From the NCBI GenBank assembly GCA_029007095.1, contig JAQXHF010000004.1, positions 1-64,000 of the forward strand: DNA of 64,000 nucleotides. Direction: 5' to 3'. Shown here piece after piece: positions 1 to 29,392 of this stretch. The stretch comes from Clostridia bacterium (GTDB taxonomy: Bacteria; Bacillota; Clostridia; Oscillospirales; Acutalibacteraceae). Below the pieces are notes generated by a model. That model did no database searches. It saw nothing but the letters and a program-made list of their open reading frames with translations, and was not told the origin of the DNA. The position numbers were made by a program, and so were the translations under genes. The number at the start of each line of letters is the position of its first letter. Position 1 is the stretch's first letter.

Positions 1-1
1 T

Positions 2-319
2 TTACAGCTTGAAAAAGAAAAAGCCGCTAAGGCCAAAGAAAAACAGCGAATAGCTCTTGAAAAAGCTCGTGCCGCCGAAGCCGAAAGGGCAAGATTGGCA
101 AAAGAAAAAGAAAAGGCCAAGCTTGCAAAAATGAAAGCGGATCAACTTGAAAAAGAAAGAGCCGCAAAAGCAAAGGCAAAGGAAAAAGAGCGAAAAGCCA
201 AAGAAAAAGCTAAGCAAAAAGAGAAAGAAGCCCGTCAAAAGGCAAAGAACAAAGAAAAAGAAATTTTGAAGCGTGACAACGCGAAAACTGAATCATCAAA
301 CGAGGCAAATCAGGACTAA
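2..319 (+). CDS. C-terminal fragment of a Lys/Glu/Ala-rich protein (5' end outside window)
   Basis: The reading frame is open from base 2 to the stop at 317-319, so about 105 residues of the C-terminus are present and the start lies upstream of the window. The visible part is almost entirely Lys, Glu, Ala, Arg and Gln in short repeats such as KEKERKAKEKAKQKEK, as expected for a long charged helix or coiled coil. It ends with a polar tail (TESSNEANQD). No domain can be named. The next gene starts 27 bases later with its own strong ribosome binding site, so the two are probably co-transcribed. A similar charged stretch occurs at the N-terminus of the membrane protein at 11774-12661. Low complexity makes any homology claim unsafe. 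Confidence 0.7.
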   Translation, partial: LQLEKEKAAKAKEKQRIALEKARAAEAERARLAKEKEKAKLAKMKADQLEKERAAKAKAKEKERKAKEKAKQKEKEARQKAKNKEKEILKRDNAKTESSNEANQD

Positions 320-7620: not shown

Positions 7621-8247
7621 ATGCGAAAGAATTTCCAACTTTACAAGACGATAATACTTGTTGCGGCTTCTGCAATAACCTTGATTGCGGTTACTTTTGC
7701 ATGGTTCGGAGTTTCAAATAACGGCACTTTTGAAAGTTTCAAAGGCGTTATCGAGGGTAATCCCGTAAGCGTTGATTTCTATCAGAAGGGAACCGATGAT
7801 GAATATGCCGCTCTTGACGGAGATATAACGCTTAACAATTTTGTCCCCGGAAGCTATAATTGCTATAAAATGCTTGTAACTACAAAGACGGCTGATCCTC
7901 TTAAACTGTCATTCACGATAGACGATTTACCGAGCGATATGCCCGCGGCGCTCAAAAGTGCTGTCCAGATTAAATATACCCTTGTTAAAGACTCATCCGA
8001 CGGTAGCTCACAAACCGTAATTTCCGAGTCAAACGGATATATCTCGCTTGACGAATATACAGACGGAGTGATTTTCGGCGGAATTGACCTTACTCAATAT
8101 CAGAGCGCAAAAGGCGATATTTTTACCATATATTATGAAATCGGTCTTGATCCGAACAGTTCTTCCGATATTTCATTGTTGAGCTCTTCGCTCGGATATG
8201 TTAATATCAGCGCACAGAGAGTAGGTATTGCCGACGGAGGCAACTGA
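7621..8247 (+). CDS. SipW-dependent exported protein 1 (AWF signal peptide, TasA/CalY-like)
   Basis: The 208-residue product begins with a basic and hydrophobic N-terminus ending in Phe-Ala-Trp-Phe at residues 26-29. This is the signature of signal peptides processed by SipW-type signal peptidases, as in TasA and CalY matrix proteins. The mature part is polar and beta-rich, with a V-P-G-S-Y segment near residues 80-84 and no cysteine-rich or enzymatic motif. The stop TGA overlaps the ATG of the first signal peptidase by one base, which couples their translation and suggests that the pair works together. It is probably an extracellular fibre or matrix subunit; that function is inferred from the signal peptide and context. 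Confidence 0.82.
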   Translation: MRKNFQLYKTIILVAASAITLIAVTFAWFGVSNNGTFESFKGVIEGNPVSVDFYQKGTDDEYAALDGDITLNNFVPGSYNCYKMLVTTKTADPLKLSFTIDDLPSDMPAALKSAVQIKYTLVKDSSDGSSQTVISESNGYISLDEYTDGVIFGGIDLTQYQSAKGDIFTIYYEIGLDPNSSSDISLLSSSLGYVNISAQRVGIADGGN

Positions 8248-8852
8248 TGCAAAAGGTAAAGAAAGTTTTTTCGGCAGTAATGGCGGTTATAACCGCGGCT
8301 TTATTCATCTTCGGCTTTGCTGTTTTTGTTTCTGTTATGAGAGCGGCGGGCGGTCAGATTCCGTCTGTCCTCGGATACAGCGTGATGCAGATTCAGACTG
8401 GTAGCATGGAGCCTGAGTATGAAATCGGCACGGTTATTGTTACTAAAAAAACAGACGCGGTTAAACTGAAAAAAGGCGATGTAATCAGCTTTTATTCAAC
8501 AGATTCTTTAATCAGCGGTAAGGTGAATACTCACCGCATCGTTTCGGTAAGATATGACGATGAGGGTTATCCGATTTTTATGACAAAGGGTGACGCTAAT
8601 CAGGCTGCCGATAGAATGGAAGTCGATTCCGAAAGAATAATCGGTAAGGTCATATTTAATCTCGGAACGGTCAGCGGATCGGTTATAAGCGTTTTACAGA
8701 ATCCGAAGGTCATTTTTTTCCTGATTGTGTTGCCACTGATTTTCATAACTTTTGGTGAAGCCGTAAATCTTGTAACGATGATTGCCGCCAACAGAGAAGC
8801 AAAAAAATTTGGAAGCGACAAAAACGATAATGAAAAGCCAAATGACAAATAA
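8247..8852 (+). CDS. SipW-type signal peptidase I, copy 1
   Basis: The 201-residue membrane peptidase has an N-terminal transmembrane segment (about residues 7-30) and a second near the C-terminus (about 153-178). The catalytic region has IQTGSMEP with the nucleophile Ser53. An NTHR motif places His96 where bacterial type I peptidases have the general-base Lys; Ser/His is the hallmark of the SipW/ER type. A TKGDAN box with Asp116 follows. It should cut the AWF-type signal peptides of its neighbours on the outer face of the membrane. It overlaps the upstream substrate gene by one base and the next peptidase gene by 23 bases. The charged tail (KKFGSDKNDNEKPNDK) is cytoplasmic by prediction. Confidence 0.9.
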   Translation: MQKVKKVFSAVMAVITAALFIFGFAVFVSVMRAAGGQIPSVLGYSVMQIQTGSMEPEYEIGTVIVTKKTDAVKLKKGDVISFYSTDSLISGKVNTHRIVSVRYDDEGYPIFMTKGDANQAADRMEVDSERIIGKVIFNLGTVSGSVISVLQNPKVIFFLIVLPLIFITFGEAVNLVTMIAANREAKKFGSDKNDNEKPNDK

Positions 8853-9345
8853 GCAAAAATTAAATATATTTTTTACTTCCGTTGTAATTTTTATTGCTGT
8901 GATTGCGGTCGGGTTTGTATTTTTCCCAAAGTTGGTCAATTACAAAACCTATTCCATTCAGACAGGAAGTATGGAGCCGAATATCCATAAGGGCAGTATG
9001 ATTTATGTAAAGGAATGTAAAAATTTTTCCGACTATAAGGTAGGCGATGTCGTCACATTTACCGATTTCGGAAAAACTAAGAGCTTTACTCACCGAATTG
9101 TTGCAATCGACGAGGAAAATCAGATGTTTACAACTAAGGGCGACGCAAACGAAGAAAATGATCTTGAACCTACATCGGCAATGTTTGCGGTCGGTAAAGT
9201 AGAATTTGCAGTACCTTATCTCGGCTATGTAGCGACTTTTTTGAATAACACGGCGACTAAAATTTCAATAGCTGTAATTTATATAGCATGGCTCGCCATA
9301 GAAATTGAAATCTATATTACGGAAAGGAAGAAGAAATATGAGTAA
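8830..9345 (+). CDS. SipW-type signal peptidase I, copy 2
   Basis: The product is about 171 residues from the ATG at 8830 (alternative ATG at 8842; a longer in-frame start at 8782 would overlap copy 1 by 71 bases and has no good ribosome binding site). It has an N-terminal transmembrane helix (about residues 12-32), the Ser motif IQTGSMEP (Ser47), FTHRIV (His88), TKGDAN (Asp105) and a C-terminal helix with a basic tail. These are the Ser/His features of the SipW/ER-type family. The gene starts inside the end of copy 1 and its own stop overlaps the start of exported protein 2 by 8 bases, so the order in this operon is substrate, peptidase, peptidase, substrate. It is clearly diverged from copy 1, not a recent duplicate. 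Confidence 0.88.
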   Translation: MKSQMTNKQKLNIFFTSVVIFIAVIAVGFVFFPKLVNYKTYSIQTGSMEPNIHKGSMIYVKECKNFSDYKVGDVVTFTDFGKTKSFTHRIVAIDEENQMFTTKGDANEENDLEPTSAMFAVGKVEFAVPYLGYVATFLNNTATKISIAVIYIAWLAIEIEIYITERKKKYE

Positions 9346-9988
9346 AAGAATAATACTGATGATAGCTTCCCTTGCCGTGATACTCGGTCTGATGAATTGC
9401 GGCAGTTCATATGCCTGGTTTGTAACCGCGGCTAAGAAACAGCAGACAATTTCTGTTTCTGTTGTCAGCAGTACCAATACCGCATATCTTACCGATTTGG
9501 ATTCTGACGAGTCAAACATAATAATTATGCAAAAGGATAATCTTGTAAGTCTTGACGGCAGAGAGGCTGTTCTGAAAATTGAGAATAAATCAACTACCGA
9601 TACACAGCTGAGAATTGCGGTCGAATACACGAGCTGCAAGGACGGAAAGCCTGAGCAGGTTCGATATTCGGCAAGCGACGATGATATAACAGTTGAATTT
9701 GCCAATAAAAATTGGGCTAAAAATATCAACGCCGGCGGTGATTGCTATTTCTATTATGTCGGTGATAATTATTCCGGCGATGAAATTGATAACCTTGACT
9801 CGGTTGCTTCAATAGGTTCTGATGTTTCTGAAATAGAAGCTATCAAGAGTATTTATTATAATGAAGATGTTTCTGACAACTATTCGGGACAGAAGATAAA
9901 TGTTAAGGTTATTTTTGAATCAAAGCAAGCTGACAATGTTACATGGTCAACTGTTGATGAATACGGCGTTTCAGGCGTAGCGGAGTGA
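9338..9988 (+). CDS. SipW-dependent exported protein 2 (AWF signal peptide)
   Basis: The ATG at 9338 is preceded by GGAAAGGAAG; the longer frame starting at 9305 would run deep into copy 2 of the peptidase. The 216-residue product has a hydrophobic N-terminus ending in Tyr-Ala-Trp-Phe (residues 25-28), the SipW-type signature. The mature part is acidic, with many Asp, Ser, Asn and Tyr residues, and no enzyme motif. The segment LKIENKSTTDTQLRIAVEY resembles the N-terminal beta strands of TasA-like proteins, where a conserved Asn-rich strand follows the cleavage site (inference). The next peptidase gene begins 4 bases after its stop. Confidence 0.82.
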   Translation: MSKRIILMIASLAVILGLMNCGSSYAWFVTAAKKQQTISVSVVSSTNTAYLTDLDSDESNIIIMQKDNLVSLDGREAVLKIENKSTTDTQLRIAVEYTSCKDGKPEQVRYSASDDDITVEFANKNWAKNINAGGDCYFYYVGDNYSGDEIDNLDSVASIGSDVSEIEAIKSIYYNEDVSDNYSGQKINVKVIFESKQADNVTWSTVDEYGVSGVAE

Positions 9989-9992
9989 AAAA

Positions 9993-10520
9993 ATGATGTC
10001 TAAGGTAAAACCTGCAAACATCTTATTTAACATTTTTATGATTATTGCCATGCTTGCAGCCGGTTTTGTCGGATTTAATCTTGTAACCGGAACAAAGGGT
10101 TATGCGGTAGTCAGCGACAGTATGAAAGAAACGCTGAATAAAGGCGATGTTGTGTTTGTCCGTGAGACTGATTTCGACAGCTTGAATGTGGGTGATGTCA
10201 TTACCGTCAAAGTTGGCGATAAGGGATATTTCACACACCGTATAGTTGATATTGATTATGAATCTCAAACGGTTAAGACTAAGGGTGACGCAAATCCGTC
10301 TAACGATCCGGGCAGAACGGAAAGTAAAATGATAGTTGGAAAAATGTGGTATAAACTGCCGCTTGCAGGATATCTTTCAATATGGTTAGGCGGCTCGACA
10401 GCGAAAAAAGGAATTATAATTCTTACTGTTGCGGCTTGTGTGCTTATAGCGCTGAACTCAATTATAGCTGCAAAGAATAAAAATCGGAGAAAGGAAGATG
10501 GCGGAAATGAGCAAAACTAA
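9993..10520 (+). CDS. SipW-type signal peptidase I, copy 3 (SDSM variant)
   Basis: The 175-residue product has an N-terminal membrane helix (about residues 8-30), the catalytic Ser43 in a VVSDSMKE context, THRIV with His82, TKGDAN with Asp99, and a second hydrophobic segment near residues 137-157. It is therefore a SipW/ER-type Ser/His peptidase. It differs from copies 1 and 2 around the nucleophile: they have TGSMEP, whereas here it is SDSMKE, without the Glu-Pro after Met. GGAG precedes the start. Its 3' end overlaps exported protein 3 by 23 bases. The changed active-site loop may mean a different substrate preference (inference). Confidence 0.88.
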   Translation: MMSKVKPANILFNIFMIIAMLAAGFVGFNLVTGTKGYAVVSDSMKETLNKGDVVFVRETDFDSLNVGDVITVKVGDKGYFTHRIVDIDYESQTVKTKGDANPSNDPGRTESKMIVGKMWYKLPLAGYLSIWLGGSTAKKGIIILTVAACVLIALNSIIAAKNKNRRKEDGGNEQN

Positions 10521-11139
10521 AAAAATACTTGCCTGCATAGCCTCGCTTACGCTTGTTTTATGCGTCGGATATTTTTCCGTTATGTCTCCGACCTCCGCAT
10601 GGTTTTATGACAGCGGCGTTATCGACAGCGGCGACAGCTTCGTTTTCGGCAGCCTTTCGGTTAATTCAAGATTTGTTTCGGACAAGAGCGTTAGCTTTGA
10701 AGCGGCTACGGATTTTACCGATGAAAACGAAATCTTTTTTGACGATATGGTTCATACCGATACCGTTAATGTTTCTAATGCGGGCAATATCCCTGCAAGA
10801 GTTTATATTGATGTTAAAAATGTCGGTGAGTCAAAGGGACTTCGTTGGTTTGCATATACGGACAGCGTACTCGTTGATTCAAGTGTAAAAAAGACACTTA
10901 AAAATGTGCTTGATTCGCTTGATGATAACGGATTAAGTTCATACAATATCGGAGCTGATTCCAACAGCGGTTGGTATGTTCTTCTGCAACCGGGACAGTC
11001 AGAGCAGATTAAGATTGCCACTTGGATTCAATATGATGATGTTAAGAATGAGCTTCAAAAAAATAATTCTCTGAGCGGATATGATGTTGAAATTACAATG
11101 ACCGCAACTCAAGATATTGACGGTGCAATGCAACGATAA
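10498..11139 (+). CDS. SipW-dependent exported protein 3 (AWF signal peptide, TasA/CalY-like)
   Basis: The 213-residue product starts at ATG 10498 (an in-frame ATG at 10507 is also possible). The N-terminus ends in Ser-Ala-Trp-Phe (residues 33-36). The mature part has a VNVSNAGNIPARVYIDV segment and ends near TMTATQDIDGAMQR. A D-x-V-x-V-x-N strand and a terminal T-A-T-Q-like motif are typical of TasA/CalY-type proteins, which makes this the clearest family member of the four. It begins inside the third peptidase gene, so translation is coupled. Expected role: secreted matrix or fibre subunit cleaved by a neighbouring SipW-type peptidase. Confidence 0.85.
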   Translation: MAEMSKTKKILACIASLTLVLCVGYFSVMSPTSAWFYDSGVIDSGDSFVFGSLSVNSRFVSDKSVSFEAATDFTDENEIFFDDMVHTDTVNVSNAGNIPARVYIDVKNVGESKGLRWFAYTDSVLVDSSVKKTLKNVLDSLDDNGLSSYNIGADSNSGWYVLLQPGQSEQIKIATWIQYDDVKNELQKNNSLSGYDVEITMTATQDIDGAMQR

Positions 11140-11160
11140 ATTAAGTCGGGGTGACAGTAA

Positions 11161-11784
11161 ATGTTTCAGAAATTTAATAAAAAAGCAATAGCTGTCATCG
11201 TAGCGGTTGTTGCAGTTATAGCGGCTGTCGGTGCAACGCTTGCGTGGTTCTCCACCAAAAGCTCTGTAAGCGAAAAATTTACGCTTTCACCGATAAAAGC
11301 GACGGGTGAAGTTTATTTCGATGTTAACGGCGAGAAAAAAGAAGCTTCAAAGTTTGCTGACAACGACGGACTGTATATATTAAGTCTTGATAAAAATGAT
11401 GATAACTATATCGGAAATCTCAGAATGAATGTGAAGCTCAGCGGCAAAGCCTGTGTGCGTGTTCGTTTAGAATTTGAATGGAATAACGCTGACGGTTCGG
11501 TGGCTCAGTATTCTACATCGGTTCCGTATGTTTTCGGTGACGAGTGGTACGATAACCGCAACGAAGATTACTGCGTTTATTATATGGAAAACAACGGCAA
11601 AGCGAGCTTTGACAATTTGCCTGTAATAAGCGGATTTGATGAAAGCGAATTTGACGATTTCGGCTTTGACAGCGGGAATTATGTGAGGACGTCGATTGAG
11701 GTTGACGCGGTTCAGGTTAACCGATATCCGCAGCTTTGGGGTATTAAAAATTTCCCATGGGAAGTTGATGAAAATGGCAAATAA
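11161..11784 (+). CDS. SipW-dependent exported protein 4 (AWF signal peptide)
   Basis: The 207-residue product starts 21 bases after exported protein 3, behind GGGGTGA. The signal peptide has a long Val/Ala-rich core and ends in Leu-Ala-Trp-Phe (residues 27-30). The mature part contains VYFDVNGEKK, an LRMNVKLSGKACVRVRLEFEW strand pair and, near the C-terminus, IEVDAVQVNRYPQLWG. The D-A-V-Q element resembles the terminal A-x-Q motif of TasA-like proteins. It is the last AWF protein of the run; the following membrane-protein gene starts within its final codons. No peptidase lies immediately next to it, so it presumably shares one of the three upstream. Confidence 0.83.
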   Translation: MFQKFNKKAIAVIVAVVAVIAAVGATLAWFSTKSSVSEKFTLSPIKATGEVYFDVNGEKKEASKFADNDGLYILSLDKNDDNYIGNLRMNVKLSGKACVRVRLEFEWNNADGSVAQYSTSVPYVFGDEWYDNRNEDYCVYYMENNGKASFDNLPVISGFDESEFDDFGFDSGNYVRTSIEVDAVQVNRYPQLWGIKNFPWEVDENGK

Positions 11785-12661
11785 AAAGAAAAAGCCTGCG
11801 GCAGGTAAGTCTGTCGCAGGCAAAAATAATTCAGACAAAAAAGTTAATAAATCGGCGTCCGTTTCAAGTAAATCTGCACGCAAAAAGGCTCTCAATGATG
11901 AAAAAGAAGCGCTCAAAGTAATTAAAAAGAATGAGAAAGCTCAGCTTCAAAAAAAGAAAAAGAGCGATGAAATAAGAAAAATGCGTGAAAAGAAGCAAAA
12001 TGCCGAAAGGAAGATGGCAGAAAAAGAAAAATCAAAGACTGAGAAAATCAAGAAAAGAAAAAGCTTCAAGAAAAAATTAAAAAAATTCGGTAAAAAAATT
12101 AAATACTATACAAGCAAGGATTTCTTGGGTTCTTTTAATTATGTCAGGATTTTTCTTTTTATAATTCTTCCCGTATCGGTCATAGTTGCAGGCTGTGCAG
12201 CCGTTTCACAAAGCGTTGCGGTTAATGTTCCGAGCGAAATAAGAAATTTTGAATTTACGGGCAGAACCGAAAGTGAGCTTACAGCCTTAAAATCAGAGTT
12301 TAACGAGGGGCAAAAGCAGGCTCTTATAGATTCGACAGATGCAAAAGGTTCAGGCAAATTTGATTTTTATATAGACAAAACAATTTATATTGACGATGAC
12401 TTTTCTGATTTTGATTTATGCTTCGGCAATCCGAACAGCGACTGCATTTTAATTGCAACGATTTACGATTCGGACGGAAATGTTATTTACCGTTCGCTCG
12501 GAGTTGAACCGGAAACCGAAATCAAAAAAGCTTCTCTTTTTAACAGCATACCCTACGGTGAACAAAAAATGAAGGTATGCGTCAATGCTTATGACAGCGA
12601 AACAAATGAGAAAATCGGTACAAAATATGCTAAAATTAAGCTCGCGGTTGGTGTTCGGTAG
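11774..12661 (+). CDS. Membrane protein with Lys-rich cytoplasmic N-terminus and extracellular domain
   Basis: The chosen start is ATG 11774 (MANKKKK), with GGGAAG about 10 bases upstream; ATG 11768 is also possible and the frame opens even earlier. About 110 residues of strongly basic Lys-rich sequence come first, then one membrane helix (about residues 124-147, IFLFIILPVSVIVAG). An extracellular part of about 145 residues follows. That part contains NPNS, then YDSDGNVIY, which recur as NPSS and YDGDGKQIY in the next gene, so the two are paralogous in this domain. The overlap with exported protein 4 and zero spacing to the next gene place it in the same operon. Function unknown; anchoring or assembly of the exported proteins is a guess. 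Confidence 0.8.
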   Translation: MANKKKKPAAGKSVAGKNNSDKKVNKSASVSSKSARKKALNDEKEALKVIKKNEKAQLQKKKKSDEIRKMREKKQNAERKMAEKEKSKTEKIKKRKSFKKKLKKFGKKIKYYTSKDFLGSFNYVRIFLFIILPVSVIVAGCAAVSQSVAVNVPSEIRNFEFTGRTESELTALKSEFNEGQKQALIDSTDAKGSGKFDFYIDKTIYIDDDFSDFDLCFGNPNSDCILIATIYDSDGNVIYRSLGVEPETEIKKASLFNSIPYGEQKMKVCVNAYDSETNEKIGTKYAKIKLAVGVR

Positions 12662-13147
12662 ATGAATAAAAAGAAAAGAATAATACTTATTTTATTATCT
12701 GTCGTCGCTTGCGCCGTTATAGTTTCAATCGTTCTTGTTTTTAGCGGTGCGGCGGATAAAATCAGATTAAACGCGGCTGCCTCCGGCGAGGTTAAGGACG
12801 GACTTCTGCCAGTTGAAGGAATTGAGCATATTACCGATGTTCCCAACGGTGAAATCAGATATTTGATTAACAAAAAAGTATTTTTTGAAAGTCCTTATTC
12901 AATGGGGAATTTTATGTTTGAGAATCCGTCAAGCTGTGGATATGCGCTTGTTTTTGTAATATATGACGGCGACGGCAAGCAGATTTATACATCGCCAAAA
13001 ATCAATCCCGGACAGTATTTGGAAAAGGACAAGCTATCCTCTGTGCTGAGTTCGGGAGTATATGAATGTTCATATTCTGCTCAGGCATATTCAGACGATG
13101 AATTTGTCGGGAAAATAAGCGGAGTAATAACGCTGAGTATCGGCTGA
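12662..13147 (+). CDS. Membrane-anchored protein paralogous to the preceding gene product
   Basis: The 161-residue product starts on the base after the stop of the preceding gene. A basic N-terminus and one hydrophobic segment (about residues 6-29) act as signal or anchor. The remaining 130 residues match the extracellular part of the 11774-12661 product in order and spacing: a short strand after an FES/IDD position, F-x-N-P-x-S, an I-Y-D-x-D-G-x-x-I-Y motif, and a closing strand ending in I-T-L-S-I-G. It lacks the Lys-rich extension. It is the last member of the overlapping run. No known domain was recognised. Confidence 0.8.
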   Translation: MNKKKRIILILLSVVACAVIVSIVLVFSGAADKIRLNAAASGEVKDGLLPVEGIEHITDVPNGEIRYLINKKVFFESPYSMGNFMFENPSSCGYALVFVIYDGDGKQIYTSPKINPGQYLEKDKLSSVLSSGVYECSYSAQAYSDDEFVGKISGVITLSIG

Positions 13148-16363: not shown

Positions 16364-17275
16364 ATGATTGACTTTAAAAACGTATCTAAGGTATATGATA
16401 ACGGAACAAAGGCTCTTCATAATATAAACATTCATATTGATAAGGGAGAATTTGTATTCGTTGTCGGCGCTTCCGGTGCGGGAAAGAGTACCTTTCTCAA
16501 ACTGATGATGCGTGAAGAAGTTCCTTCAACGGGAACAATAAACATTAAAAATTACAATCTTGGAGAGATGAAGAAAAAGGAAATCCCGTATTTCAGACGA
16601 AATATGGGTATCGTTTTTCAGGATTTCAGACTCATTCAGAATATGACGGTTTATGACAATGTTGCTTTTGCGATGCGCGTTGTCGGCGCGAGGGAAAAAG
16701 AAATCCGTAAACGCGTTCCGTATGTTATAAATATTGTAGGTCTTTCCTCTAAGGCGAGAAACTATCCGATGGAGCTTTCCGGCGGTGAACAGCAGCGTGT
16801 TGCACTTGCAAGAGCGCTTGTTAATAACGCCGATATTATCATAGCCGACGAGCCTACGGGAAATGTTGATCCGCAGATGTCGCTTGAAATTGTTGAGTTG
16901 CTTACAAGACTTAACGAGGCCGGCACAACGGTTATAATGGTTACTCACGAGCATAGCCTTGTTTCGCAGTTTGACAAGCGTGTAATCGTTCTAGACAGCG
17001 GCGAGGTTATTTCCGACGGCGTTATGGAAGACGGTGAAATCCCGATAGGTCTGGCTTCTCATCTCAACAGCGACACAAAGAGGAGAACCCGTACTAAATT
17101 CGGAAACAAGATTTCTAAGAAAGAAAAAAATTCAGAGAAGATTATTGCGGTTGAACCGAAAGATAATGTTAAGGTTGACGACGAATATCTTGACGCTCTT
17201 ATCGGAGATACCGATTCTTACAGAGTTTATCTTGAACAGGACGATTCACAGCCGAAAGGCGGTGACAGTCAGTGA
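16364..17275 (+). CDS. ftsE: Cell division ATP-binding protein FtsE with C-terminal extension
   Basis: The 303-residue product is an ABC ATPase. Walker A is GASGAGKST (residues 35-43), the signature LSGGEQQRVALARAL begins near residue 139, and Walker B IIIADEPTG is near residue 160. It forms a type VII ABC complex with FtsX that transmits ATP hydrolysis to a wall hydrolase outside the cell. FtsE is normally about 228 residues; this one continues for about 75 more. The extra part is basic then acidic (KRRTRTKFGNKISKKEKNSE, later DDEYLDALIGD), with no membrane segment, so it is a cytoplasmic tail. Its stop overlaps the GTG start of ftsX by four bases. Confidence 0.95.
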   Translation: MIDFKNVSKVYDNGTKALHNINIHIDKGEFVFVVGASGAGKSTFLKLMMREEVPSTGTINIKNYNLGEMKKKEIPYFRRNMGIVFQDFRLIQNMTVYDNVAFAMRVVGAREKEIRKRVPYVINIVGLSSKARNYPMELSGGEQQRVALARALVNNADIIIADEPTGNVDPQMSLEIVELLTRLNEAGTTVIMVTHEHSLVSQFDKRVIVLDSGEVISDGVMEDGEIPIGLASHLNSDTKRRTRTKFGNKISKKEKNSEKIIAVEPKDNVKVDDEYLDALIGDTDSYRVYLEQDDSQPKGGDSQ

Positions 17276-18198
17276 AAAAAGGCGGAAGTTTAAGTTATCT
17301 TACCAAAGAGGGATTTCACAATGTTTGGATGAACCGATTGATGTCGGTTGCTTCCATAGCGGTCCTTATGGCTTGCCTTGTTATGATGGGTTCTGCGTTT
17401 ATGATTATCGTAAATGTGCAGAATGTTATGAATCAGATTGAACAGCAGAACGTAATTATGGTCTATATGGACGATGATGCGACGCAGGCTGATGTCGCGG
17501 CGCTTCAAAAAGATATATTGAGCGTTGACAATGTTCTTTCCTGCGAGCATGAGGATAAGGAAAAGGCTTTTCAGGAACAGCTTGACGAGCTTGGCTCAAA
17601 GGCCGATTATTTTGAAGGAGTCGAAAATCCTCTTCCGGAAACCTTTAAAGTAACGGTTAAGGATATGGAAAAATTCGATGAAACGGCTTCGGCTTTATCG
17701 GGACTTCAAAAAGTAAACTCAATTCGTGATAATAAAGAGATAGCACAGATTCTAATCAAGACTCGTTCTTCGGTTACTTATATCAGCGTAGGAATTATTG
17801 CGGTTTTGTTGGTAATTTCACTGTTCATTATTGCTAATACTGTTCGTATAACAATGTATAGCAGACGGCTTGAAATAAATATTATGAAATCCGTTGGCGC
17901 TACAAATTGGTTTATCAGATGGCCTTTCTTTGTCGAGGGAATGACGCTCGGCGCTATTTCGGGCGTTGTGTCTTTCGGAATCGTTTGGGGCGTATATAAG
18001 CTGCTGAACGGAACTTTGCAATCAATGTTCTCCGTTATCAATTCGGGATTCAAAATCGTACCGTTCACATCATATGCTTTGTATATATTGGCAGCATTCC
18101 TTGTTATCGGTATTGTTTCCGGCGGATTGGGAAGCTTAGTTTCTATTCAAAAATATTTAAAGGAGCGTGGAGGAATTGTCTATGAAGAAGAAGAGTAA
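17272..18198 (+). CDS. ftsX: Cell division protein FtsX
   Basis: The GTG start overlaps the ftsE stop in GTGA. The 308-residue product has an N-terminal membrane helix (about residues 22-47), an extracellular loop of about 120 residues, and three further helices near residues 168-190, 215-240 and 265-290. This is the FtsX plan. The loop contains VIMVYMDDDATQ and the P-L-P-E-T-F-K-V motif typical of the extracellular domain that contacts the hydrolase. The gene for a coiled-coil M23 peptidase starts within its last codons, which fits the FtsEX-activated hydrolase pairing. Confidence 0.95.
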   Translation: MKKGGSLSYLTKEGFHNVWMNRLMSVASIAVLMACLVMMGSAFMIIVNVQNVMNQIEQQNVIMVYMDDDATQADVAALQKDILSVDNVLSCEHEDKEKAFQEQLDELGSKADYFEGVENPLPETFKVTVKDMEKFDETASALSGLQKVNSIRDNKEIAQILIKTRSSVTYISVGIIAVLLVISLFIIANTVRITMYSRRLEINIMKSVGATNWFIRWPFFVEGMTLGAISGVVSFGIVWGVYKLLNGTLQSMFSVINSGFKIVPFTSYALYILAAFLVIGIVSGGLGSLVSIQKYLKERGGIVYEEEE

Positions 18199-19516
18199 TC
18201 TCAGCCTTTTCAAAAGACTGACTTCGTTTGCGATTTGCGCCGCGGTTGTGTTCACGGCTGTCGGTTCGATGAAAATAGAGTCTCATGCAACATCTCTGTC
18301 AGCTCTTAAAAGCCAATATAACAGCTATCAGAGCAAGATAGAGGAGAGCGAAGCCAAGGTTAAGGAGCTTGAAGCGCAGCAGGCAGAGCAGGAGAGTATC
18401 ATTTCTGAGCTTAACGGTCAGATAGAACAGTTAAACCGCGAGCTTGAAAATATTATTGCTCAGCAGGCGATTATTTCAGACGATATAAATTCATCTGAAA
18501 AGGCGATTGAGAGTCTTAATACTCAGATTGCAGACCTTGATAATCAGATTGCTCAGAAAGATAAGGAGATTGACGATACCGTTGAACTTTTCTGCCAGCG
18601 AATGAAAGCGAATTATGTTTCGGGCGGAACTTCGTTGCTTGAACTTTTCACCTCGTCGTCAAGCGTATCCGGCTTTCTTAACAGACTTGAAATATTCAAG
18701 AGAGTTACTGACAGCGATCAAGCTCTTGTTGACCAGCTTGATAAGGAAATTGCTTCTATTGAGTCGATGCAGGAGGATCTTAAAACAAAGAAAACCGAGT
18801 TGCAGACTCAGAAAACAAAACTTGAAACTAAAAATTCAGAGCTTAAAGAGGCCGGCGACGAGCTTATCAGCCGTCAGCAGGATATAGTAACTAAATCGAA
18901 CGAGGTTAACGCAAAGCTTGAATCTCTCAATTATCAGACTCAGAAGCTCAATGTTTCTATCGACCGTTACGAATCCGAGATGGACGCACTTGACGATCAG
19001 ATCAAGGCTTTCATTCAGAATAATACAAACAATTCGTCTTCCGTCGGTTCATCGTCCTCAGGCGGTTCGTCATCTTCGTCGGGCGGTTCGTCTTCTTCGA
19101 CCGTCAGCAGTAAGGGTTGGGCATGGCCTGTACCTTATTCAAGCTCATATATAAGCTCGCCTTACGGATACAGAAACGATCCGATTTCGGGCAAATATAA
19201 GTTCCATTCGGGAATTGATATCACGATGGGCGGTGCTTACGGTAAGAAGATTGTTGCTTCAAAGGCGGGTACGGTTATCAGAACCGTTCATAGCAATTCA
19301 GGATACGGCAATTATGTTATGATTGACCACGGCGGCGGATATGTTACTCTTTACGGTCATTGCAGTTCGCTTGCAGTATCGACCGGTCAGAAAGTCAGCC
19401 AGGGACAGACGATAGCTTATATCGGCACGAGCGGATATTCGACAGGACCTCATGTTCATTTTGAGATACGCTTGAACGGTGAAAAGGTTAATCCGTCCAA
19501 TTATGTTCACAAATAA
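18182..19516 (+). CDS. Secreted coiled-coil M23 peptidoglycan hydrolase, likely FtsEX partner
   Basis: The start is ATG 18182, with GGAGG at 18169-18173; the frame also opens upstream at 18167. The 444-residue product has a signal peptide (to about residue 35), then about 220 residues of coiled coil rich in Glu, Gln, Lys and Ser, a Ser/Gly linker (about residues 281-307), and a C-terminal M23 metallopeptidase domain. Zinc ligands are seen in FHSGID and in GPHVHFEI near the end. The architecture is that of EnvC/PcsB/CwlO-type proteins whose coiled coil binds FtsX. Adjacent position to ftsEX supports septal or lateral wall cleavage controlled by FtsEX. Confidence 0.92.
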   Translation: MKKKSNLSLFKRLTSFAICAAVVFTAVGSMKIESHATSLSALKSQYNSYQSKIEESEAKVKELEAQQAEQESIISELNGQIEQLNRELENIIAQQAIISDDINSSEKAIESLNTQIADLDNQIAQKDKEIDDTVELFCQRMKANYVSGGTSLLELFTSSSSVSGFLNRLEIFKRVTDSDQALVDQLDKEIASIESMQEDLKTKKTELQTQKTKLETKNSELKEAGDELISRQQDIVTKSNEVNAKLESLNYQTQKLNVSIDRYESEMDALDDQIKAFIQNNTNNSSSVGSSSSGGSSSSSGGSSSSTVSSKGWAWPVPYSSSYISSPYGYRNDPISGKYKFHSGIDITMGGAYGKKIVASKAGTVIRTVHSNSGYGNYVMIDHGGGYVTLYGHCSSLAVSTGQKVSQGQTIAYIGTSGYSTGPHVHFEIRLNGEKVNPSNYVHK

Positions 19517-28639: not shown

Positions 28640-29362
28640 TTACTCCATTTCTATATTATTTATAACCAAATCGGTAGATCCTGTGAGGATAACTCCGCAG
28701 GAGACCGTTGATTTCTCATCAACCGAGCCAATGCTAACGCTGAGCGTATTGCCGTCTGCGTCGCACCGGCAATCCCAGCTATTGCCGATATTTACATTAT
28801 CGCTGAAATTGACTCTGATTTTTTTACCGCTTAAATATTCGTCGGTAAGATTTTTCTGATAAATATTGAGCTGATATGAATATGTGCCGTCGTCATTTTT
28901 CCAGATATTGATTATTCGGGCGGAAATTTTTACTTCATCGGTCGAGATTTCTGCGCTCAGACTTCCGCTTTGAGCGGCGCTTCCGTCGGACTCTGTATAT
29001 GGAAGGCTGTTTATTTTGCCGATAGAATATCTAAAAATCAGCAAGGCGTCTGTTGAATCAACCGTTCCGTCAAGGTTAACATCGGCAATTTTTATCTGAT
29101 TTTCAAAAAGCTCCGCTTTGTTAGATGTATAATTGGTTACAAGCAGAGCGTCATTGGAATTTATAACTCCGTTACCGTCAACATCACCGACAGCGCAGTT
29201 TTCATATGAATCGTTTGTTACCCGTGTCGCAAAATGAACGATGAGCGAAACTGCGGCACAAACAACCGCAATAACCGTAAATATGATTATCAGATTTTTT
29301 TTACTGATTTTTTTGCTCTTTTTACGACTGCGTTTTATAACATCGGGTTTGTTACTGTCCAT
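28640..29362 (-). CDS. Membrane-anchored type I dockerin protein with beta-sandwich C-terminus
   Basis: The start is ATG at 29362, behind GAGGA; a GTG four codons earlier falls in the ribosome binding site. The 240-residue product has a very basic cytoplasmic start, one membrane helix (about residues 24-46) and a type I dockerin: two calcium loops, DVDGNGVINSND and DVNLDGTVDSTD, each followed by ALL and a short helix. The C-terminal 110 residues have strands with NSWDCRCDADGNTLSVSI, reminiscent of CBM2-type cellulose-binding modules (weak). Dockerins normally bind cohesins. No cohesin is visible in this window, and membrane anchoring of a dockerin is unusual. Confidence 0.82.
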   Translation of the reverse strand: MDSNKPDVIKRSRKKSKKISKKNLIIIFTVIAVVCAAVSLIVHFATRVTNDSYENCAVGDVDGNGVINSNDALLVTNYTSNKAELFENQIKIADVNLDGTVDSTDALLIFRYSIGKINSLPYTESDGSAAQSGSLSAEISTDEVKISARIINIWKNDDGTYSYQLNIYQKNLTDEYLSGKKIRVNFSDNVNIGNSWDCRCDADGNTLSVSIGSVDEKSTVSCGVILTGSTDLVINNIEME

Positions 29363-29392
29363 AATGTTCCTCACAATTTTTTGATAAACAAT

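Follow-up and report, generated by a model that had tools for sequence, protein, structure and literature searches.

We describe a gene block near the start of a 64,000-nucleotide stretch (the window) from a Clostridia bacterium of the family Acutalibacteraceae (assembly GCA_029007095.1, 1.85 Mb in 146 contigs), in which genes for small exported proteins with an Ala-Trp-Phe (AWF) motif are interleaved with genes for SipW-type signal peptidases. The window begins where its contig, C4 (JAQXHF010000004.1), begins. A sequence-only reading had proposed four AWF proteins (S1 to S4) and three Ser/His-type peptidases (P1 to P3) in the order S-P-P-S-P-S-S at 7621-11784, most of their starts and stops overlapping, and the coordinates of the open reading frames (ORFs) bear out both points (Table 1). 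Neighbours overlap by 1 bp (S1/P1), 23 or 11 bp (P1/P2), 8 bp (P2/S2) and 23 or 14 bp (P3/S3), or are separated by 4 bp (S2/P3) and 21 bp (S3/S4). The close spacing runs on past S4, which overlaps M1 by 11 bp, into M1 and M2, and a scan for promoters and terminators gave counts at the chance level. With the upstream genes described below, the full locus is S0-P0-McrB-like-McrC-like-giant-S1-P1-P2-S2-P3-S3-S4-M1-M2, and in its content, order, conservation, active-site residues and peptidase lineages it is a real, conserved and expanded form of a barely described kind of locus, named CoCoPALM.

Table 1. Genes from the contig start through M2, in window coordinates.
Feature	Position	Strand	Description
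E730 tail, McrC/DUF2357-like coiled-coil protein	1-319	+	105 aa in window; remainder past contig end
Giant exported protein, 2412 aa	347-7585	+	Conventional Sec signal peptide (SLA-ADA); GLUG/M26-N-like repeats
S1, AWF exported protein, 208 aa	7621-8247	+	ORF call; AWF/AWY in 17/17 congeners
P1, SipW-type (Ser/His/Asp) signal peptidase, 201 aa	8247-8852	+	TIGR02228, E 2.3e-24
P2, SipW-type signal peptidase, 171 aa	8830-9345 (alternative ATG 8842)	+	TIGR02228, E 1.9e-29
S2, AWF exported protein, 216 aa	9338-9988	+	ORF call
P3, SipW-type signal peptidase, 175 aa	9993-10520	+	TIGR02228, E 1e-23
S3, AWF exported protein, 213 aa	10498-11139 (alternative ATG 10507)	+	Predicted beta-sandwich
S4, AWF exported protein, 207 aa	11161-11784	+	Predicted all-beta; conserved C-terminal QVNRYPQ.W.I..(L/F)PW
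M1	11774-12661	+	Lys-rich cytosolic segment, one hydrophobic segment, extracytoplasmic domain; without AWF
M2	12662-13147	+	One hydrophobic segment and extracytoplasmic domain; without AWF

The interleaved block and its conservation

In S1 to S4 the AWF motif stands at the end of the N-terminal hydrophobic segment, and among the 202 window ORFs of at least 60 residues these four are the only ones with AWF in their first 60 residues. This placement is not chance, since early AWF is confined to the N-termini of S1 to S4 and the motif occurs only five times in the 34,735 ORF residues of the window. Each S protein has its own distinct signal sequence, kept across the genus; profile comparison finds the signal region to be all that the families have in common, their mature parts being unrelated at the sequence level, and S1 to S4 match no protein family model over its cut-off. 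A scan of the genome with TIGR04088 returned S4 and one weak, chance-like match, but as the model misses S1 to S3 this is no census of AWF substrates.

The block is present in 16 of the 17 other genomes of the genus, the exception (G017) having neither a TIGR02228 match nor an E520 match, and M1 and M2 each occur in 15 of the 16 congener loci, M1 being described as the conserved last part of the block. Outside the genus the same order was found in one genome (loci L074 and L134): L074 carries S1-P1-P2-S2-P3-S3-S4-M1-M2 with 26-38% identity to S1-S4 and P1. The sequence-only reading had left open that the three-peptidase order might prove common and already described; it is common within one genus, and our literature search found no description of this gene order. 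The relatives are uncultured gut Clostridia, metagenome-assembled genomes of Oscillospiraceae or Ruminococcaceae, mostly from ruminants, deer and horse.

Just upstream of S1, the giant protein matches PF05342 (E 1.3e-8), no sortase motif was seen at its end, and its orthologues in 16 congener loci range from about 2000 to 3300 aa. The suggestion that this GLUG protein is a scaffold for the AWF proteins found no support: its signal peptide is of the ordinary kind, and other loci have different large proteins in its place. Directly 5' of the giant gene, as in the congeners, lies an Ala/Lys/Glu-rich coiled-coil sequence that is 61% identical over 97 aa, in low-complexity sequence, to the E730 protein of one congener (G013).

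The McrB/McrC-like pair upstream

The fourth TIGR02228 peptidase of this genome, P0, is on contig C79, as is a fifth AWF protein, S0. In the congeners P0 lies some 12-16 kb upstream of P1-P3 on the same strand, and the order there is S0 (an AWF protein of about 310 aa), P0, E520 (520 aa), E730 (about 730 aa), the giant gene and then S1-P1-P2-S2-P3-S3-S4-M1-M2. Because C79 ends inside E520 and C4 begins in E730, matching the congener order, the two contigs very probably adjoin as one locus, with about 2 kb (the end of E520 and most of E730) missing between them. The assembly break thus falls inside the E520/E730 pair, between C79:1-1401 (locus L096) and window 1-319.

Among structures in the PDB, the E520 profile matches those of Escherichia coli McrB only (E 5.5e-7), and an E520 orthologue matches the NCBIfam McrB model below its cut-off. 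An alignment of 13 proteins shows the invariant motifs GTGKT, LDEMN and GTINNDDST, the last containing the NxD signature, and a hydrophobic segment at about residues 58-83 followed by a heptad-like, coiled-coil-like region, together a candidate FtsB-like part. E730 orthologues in two loci (L083 and L091) score over the cut-off for DUF2357 (PF09823); congener E730 alone has no Pfam match, is alignable to those two proteins, and has a long Lys/Glu/Ala coiled-coil tail. By these sequence features E520 and E730 are a predicted membrane-anchored McrB-like GTPase and a predicted McrC/DUF2357-like coiled-coil protein, and P0 lies one gene upstream of the former.

Bell et al. (2024, eLife, PMC11090510) gave the name CoCoPALM, in a few sentences, to McrB-like genes linked to signal peptidases. 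In these systems McrB GTPases that have the NxD motif and an FtsB-like membrane/coiled-coil part are accompanied by McrC homologues with coiled coils, the signal peptidases being thought to be pilus assembly factors and details being deferred to a later publication, of which a literature text search found none. The NxD signature is usually followed by D or E, and DUF2357 is the domain through which McrC activates McrB (PMC11090510). The present locus has the same NxD McrB-like GTPase with membrane segment and coiled coil, the same coiled-coil McrC-like partner and the same adjoining signal peptidases, but differs in having four peptidases where two are usual, five interleaved AWF proteins and a giant repeat protein; the CoCoPALM paper mentions neither SipW nor TasA (PMC11090510). 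With an McrB/McrC-like core and S0 and P0 upstream of the block, the reading of the locus moves from a SipW/TasA biofilm operon to a CoCoPALM-type locus.

E520 relatives were found in 27 of the 245 genomes searched in the order, and for all 20 tested full-length relatives outside the genus a TIGR02228 peptidase lies no more than about 16 kb away on the same contig, as a rule with one flanking each side of the McrB/McrC pair. The usual number of peptidases elsewhere in the order is two, accompanied by several AWF-type proteins. Three genomes whose E520 relatives lack the membrane part (G107, G191 and G274) have no peptidase on that contig. Two tandem, E520-related McrB-like genes without the membrane part were also seen in G107 (C37:135223-139203), on a contig without a signal peptidase, and in G160 (C29:2680-6660). 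The gene before S0 in many CoCoPALM loci (L038, L128, L129, L130 and L134) encodes a Lys-rich protein with a single hydrophobic segment. Its layout is like that of M1, and it may be a constant component of such loci that has gone unrecognised.

Within the genus, mean pairwise identity is 88% for E520 (range 78-96%), 80% for E730 and 68% for P0, and falls to 52-58% for P1-P3, 43-57% for S0-S4 and 43% for the giant protein. DnaE was taken as the yardstick because pyruvate kinase is absent or too diverged in most congeners; over its whole length, congener DnaE shares 68-79% identity with the copy in the window. The putative cytosolic motor is thus under tighter constraint than a replication enzyme while the exported parts drift apart, a pattern to be expected of a fixed machine whose surface product varies. 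The same contrast would also suit a locus that is mainly an anti-phage or stress system, with the McrBC-like pair as effector and the surface proteins as sensors or decoys, and the McrB-like AAA domain is both related to Type IV restriction and a match to the PADLOC candidate-defence profile PDC-M26A (1e-35). We consider this explanation improbable, however: the locus has a fixed form in 16 of 17 congeners, where defence islands are patchy; Pfam shows no nuclease domain in those McrC-like proteins that were examined; and nothing in the block was recognised as a nuclease or methylase gene.

Four peptidase lineages

P1, P2, P3 and P0 score 86, 102.6, 83.9 and 78.9 bits against TIGR02228 (curated cut-off 51.85 bits) and have Ser/His/Asp in place of Ser/Lys, which places them among archaeal/SipW-type signal peptidases I (S26B); against the Bacillus SipW equivalog model NF046067 (cut-off 190 bits) the peptidases score only 59-90 bits. 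The catalytic pairs of the sequence-only reading were numbered exactly and are invariant in all 17 genomes, together with two aspartates each: Ser53, His96, Asp116 and Asp122 in P1; Ser47, His88, Asp105 and Asp111 in P2; Ser43, His82, Asp99 and Asp105 in P3. P0 likewise keeps Ser/His and two Asp in every copy. The signal peptidases on contig C85 were considered as SipW-type candidates and rejected, as their Ser/Lys (KRI) pattern is that of ordinary signal peptidase I.

In a tree of 93 peptidases (quick search, with Shimodaira-Hasegawa-like approximate likelihood-ratio support only), P0 groups with peptidases that lie upstream in other loci (support 97) and P1 forms one clade (99). P3 forms one clade with a support of only 65, and P2 and P3, L074 copies included, share a branch (98), in which the L074 P2 sequence, on a very long branch of its own, falls inside P2. 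Peptidases of different positions never intermix, and the P2 and P3 lineages were both already present in L074, so that the tree rules out recent tandem duplication. With their position-specific lineages and intact Ser/His/Asp, P0 to P3 look like four old and non-redundant enzymes.

The peptidases might nevertheless be interchangeable, any of them cleaving any AWF protein and the copies being kept for dosage or timing. All four have the same active-site residues, the AWF junction is common to all S proteins, related loci have one or two peptidases beside several AWF-type proteins, and one SipW suffices in Bacillus and Clostridium perfringens (PMC7395162). We hold this possible but doubtful in view of the old, separate lineages in fixed positions, the distinct signal sequence that each S protein keeps across the genus, and the doubling of the S0-P0 unit in L134 (1963-6217), where S0-P0-S0-P0 precedes the McrB-like gene; as these copies are only 23-30% identical, the doubling is old. 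In L053 (888-3176; G013), two AWF proteins of S0 type stand before a single P0, an extra substrate with no extra peptidase.

Partial distance correlations across 16 genomes (18 tests) showed excess co-divergence of P2 with S1 and with S2 (p<0.0005), the only two pairs that pass Bonferroni correction. Weaker signals for P1-S1 (p=0.035), P3-S3 (p=0.029) and P3-S4 (p=0.029) are not significant after that correction.

A candidate assembly line for a surface structure

We suggest that the block is probably the downstream half of a CoCoPALM-type locus in expanded form, which makes a surface structure with specialised peptidases. The AWF proteins would be exported via Sec and retained by their N-terminal hydrophobic segments until neighbouring SipW-type peptidases cleave at the Ala-Trp-Phe junction, and the subunits so released would build a surface structure, of which a fibre of beta-sandwich subunits is the likeliest form. 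Putative anchors are M1, M2 and, encoded upstream of S0, the Lys-rich membrane proteins. A membrane-tethered ring of the McrB-like GTPase, stimulated by the McrC-like protein, could serve as cytosolic energy source or gate for export or assembly. Each peptidase may be dedicated to one or two of the neighbouring subunits, or to a single step, as the four old, position-specific lineages suggest.

The idea of a fibre is plausible by analogy. SipW-type peptidases mature TasA and BsaA, both of which form filaments (PMC9674648, PMC7395162), and in B. cereus a chaperone-like protein is used with TasA and CalY (PMC13082335). In C. perfringens sipW-bsaABCRSD, as here, a SipW-type peptidase stands beside an exported protein, for whose export and polymerisation it is required, but that locus has a single peptidase for several exported proteins and two-component regulators, and no McrB/McrC pair is reported (PMC7395162). 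The Bacillus tapA-sipW-tasA operon likewise sets a SipW-type Ser/His peptidase beside exported proteins with a similar signal-end motif (TWA-AF in TasA), but has one peptidase, and the TasA and SipW-signal models, which Bacillus TasA passes, do not recognise S1-S4. We know of no McrB/McrC pair in that operon. With such a pair present and the TasA models failed, a plain SipW/TasA biofilm operon is rejected as the whole account.

Several results weigh against the assembly of specialised subunits proposed above. None of S1-S4 reaches the cut-offs of TIGR04088, NF046066 or PF12389 (S4 scores 13 bits to TIGR04088 and PF12389, S1-S3 nothing), although the positive control, Bacillus TasA, clears those of NF046066 and TIGR04088; profile-profile comparison of the S families with TasA was negative, and a PDB sequence search for TasA homology gave nothing usable. 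AlphaFold2 models, which cover S3 and S4, show a beta-sandwich for S3 (mean predicted local distance difference test score, pLDDT, 79) and an all-beta fold for S4 (81), and PDB fold searches with both returned nothing at E<=0.001; for S3, TasA came only at rank 13 (E 0.04, template-modelling score 0.34, non-significant), and S4 has no convincing relative, TasA-like or other, so that the models support the mechanism weakly. The pattern of co-divergence tracks gene adjacency, which makes linkage an alternative cause. Finally, other CoCoPALM loci have one downstream peptidase beside several AWF-type proteins, and pairs are therefore not general. Of the dedicated enzyme-substrate pairs in the sequence-only reading, specialisation is likely, the peptidases being diverged and individually conserved and S0-P0 being doubled in a relative, but one-to-one pairing is suggested and unproven, with co-divergence confounded by linkage.

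The missing structural match to a polymerising subunit, and the unrelated mature parts of S1-S4, would also fit AWF proteins that act as individual surface proteins (adhesins or wall-bound factors), matured by SipW-type peptidases and forming no polymer. This seems unlikely to us, since the closest characterised operons form filaments (BsaA, TasA/CalY; PMC7395162, PMC9674648, PMC13082335) and several co-encoded subunits with anchors better match an assembly.

On the assembly reading, gut Clostridia would combine, in one fixed locus, a restriction-related GTPase and SipW-type export of AWF proteins, the layout being richer than that of the one-enzyme biofilm operons of Bacillus. CoCoPALM was named without substrates, and candidate substrates and anchors are offered here; four peptidases and five substrates in one locus also provide a natural test of peptidase specificity. 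Machines of the McrB/McrC type are otherwise known from DNA restriction. More tentatively, and with considerable doubt, we propose that a membrane-anchored machine of this type drives or gates a Gram-positive assembly line for surface fibres whose subunits have their own signal peptidase.

Two further groups of genes in the window were noted by eye only. The protein encoded at 28640-29374 (minus strand) combines a membrane segment with two Asp-rich repeats of dockerin-like appearance (DVDGNGVINSNDALL and DVNLDGTVDSTDALL). Near the block, at 16364-19516, FtsE-like and FtsX-like genes are followed by a gene for a coiled-coil M23-type peptidase, a usual wall-hydrolase set of cell division.

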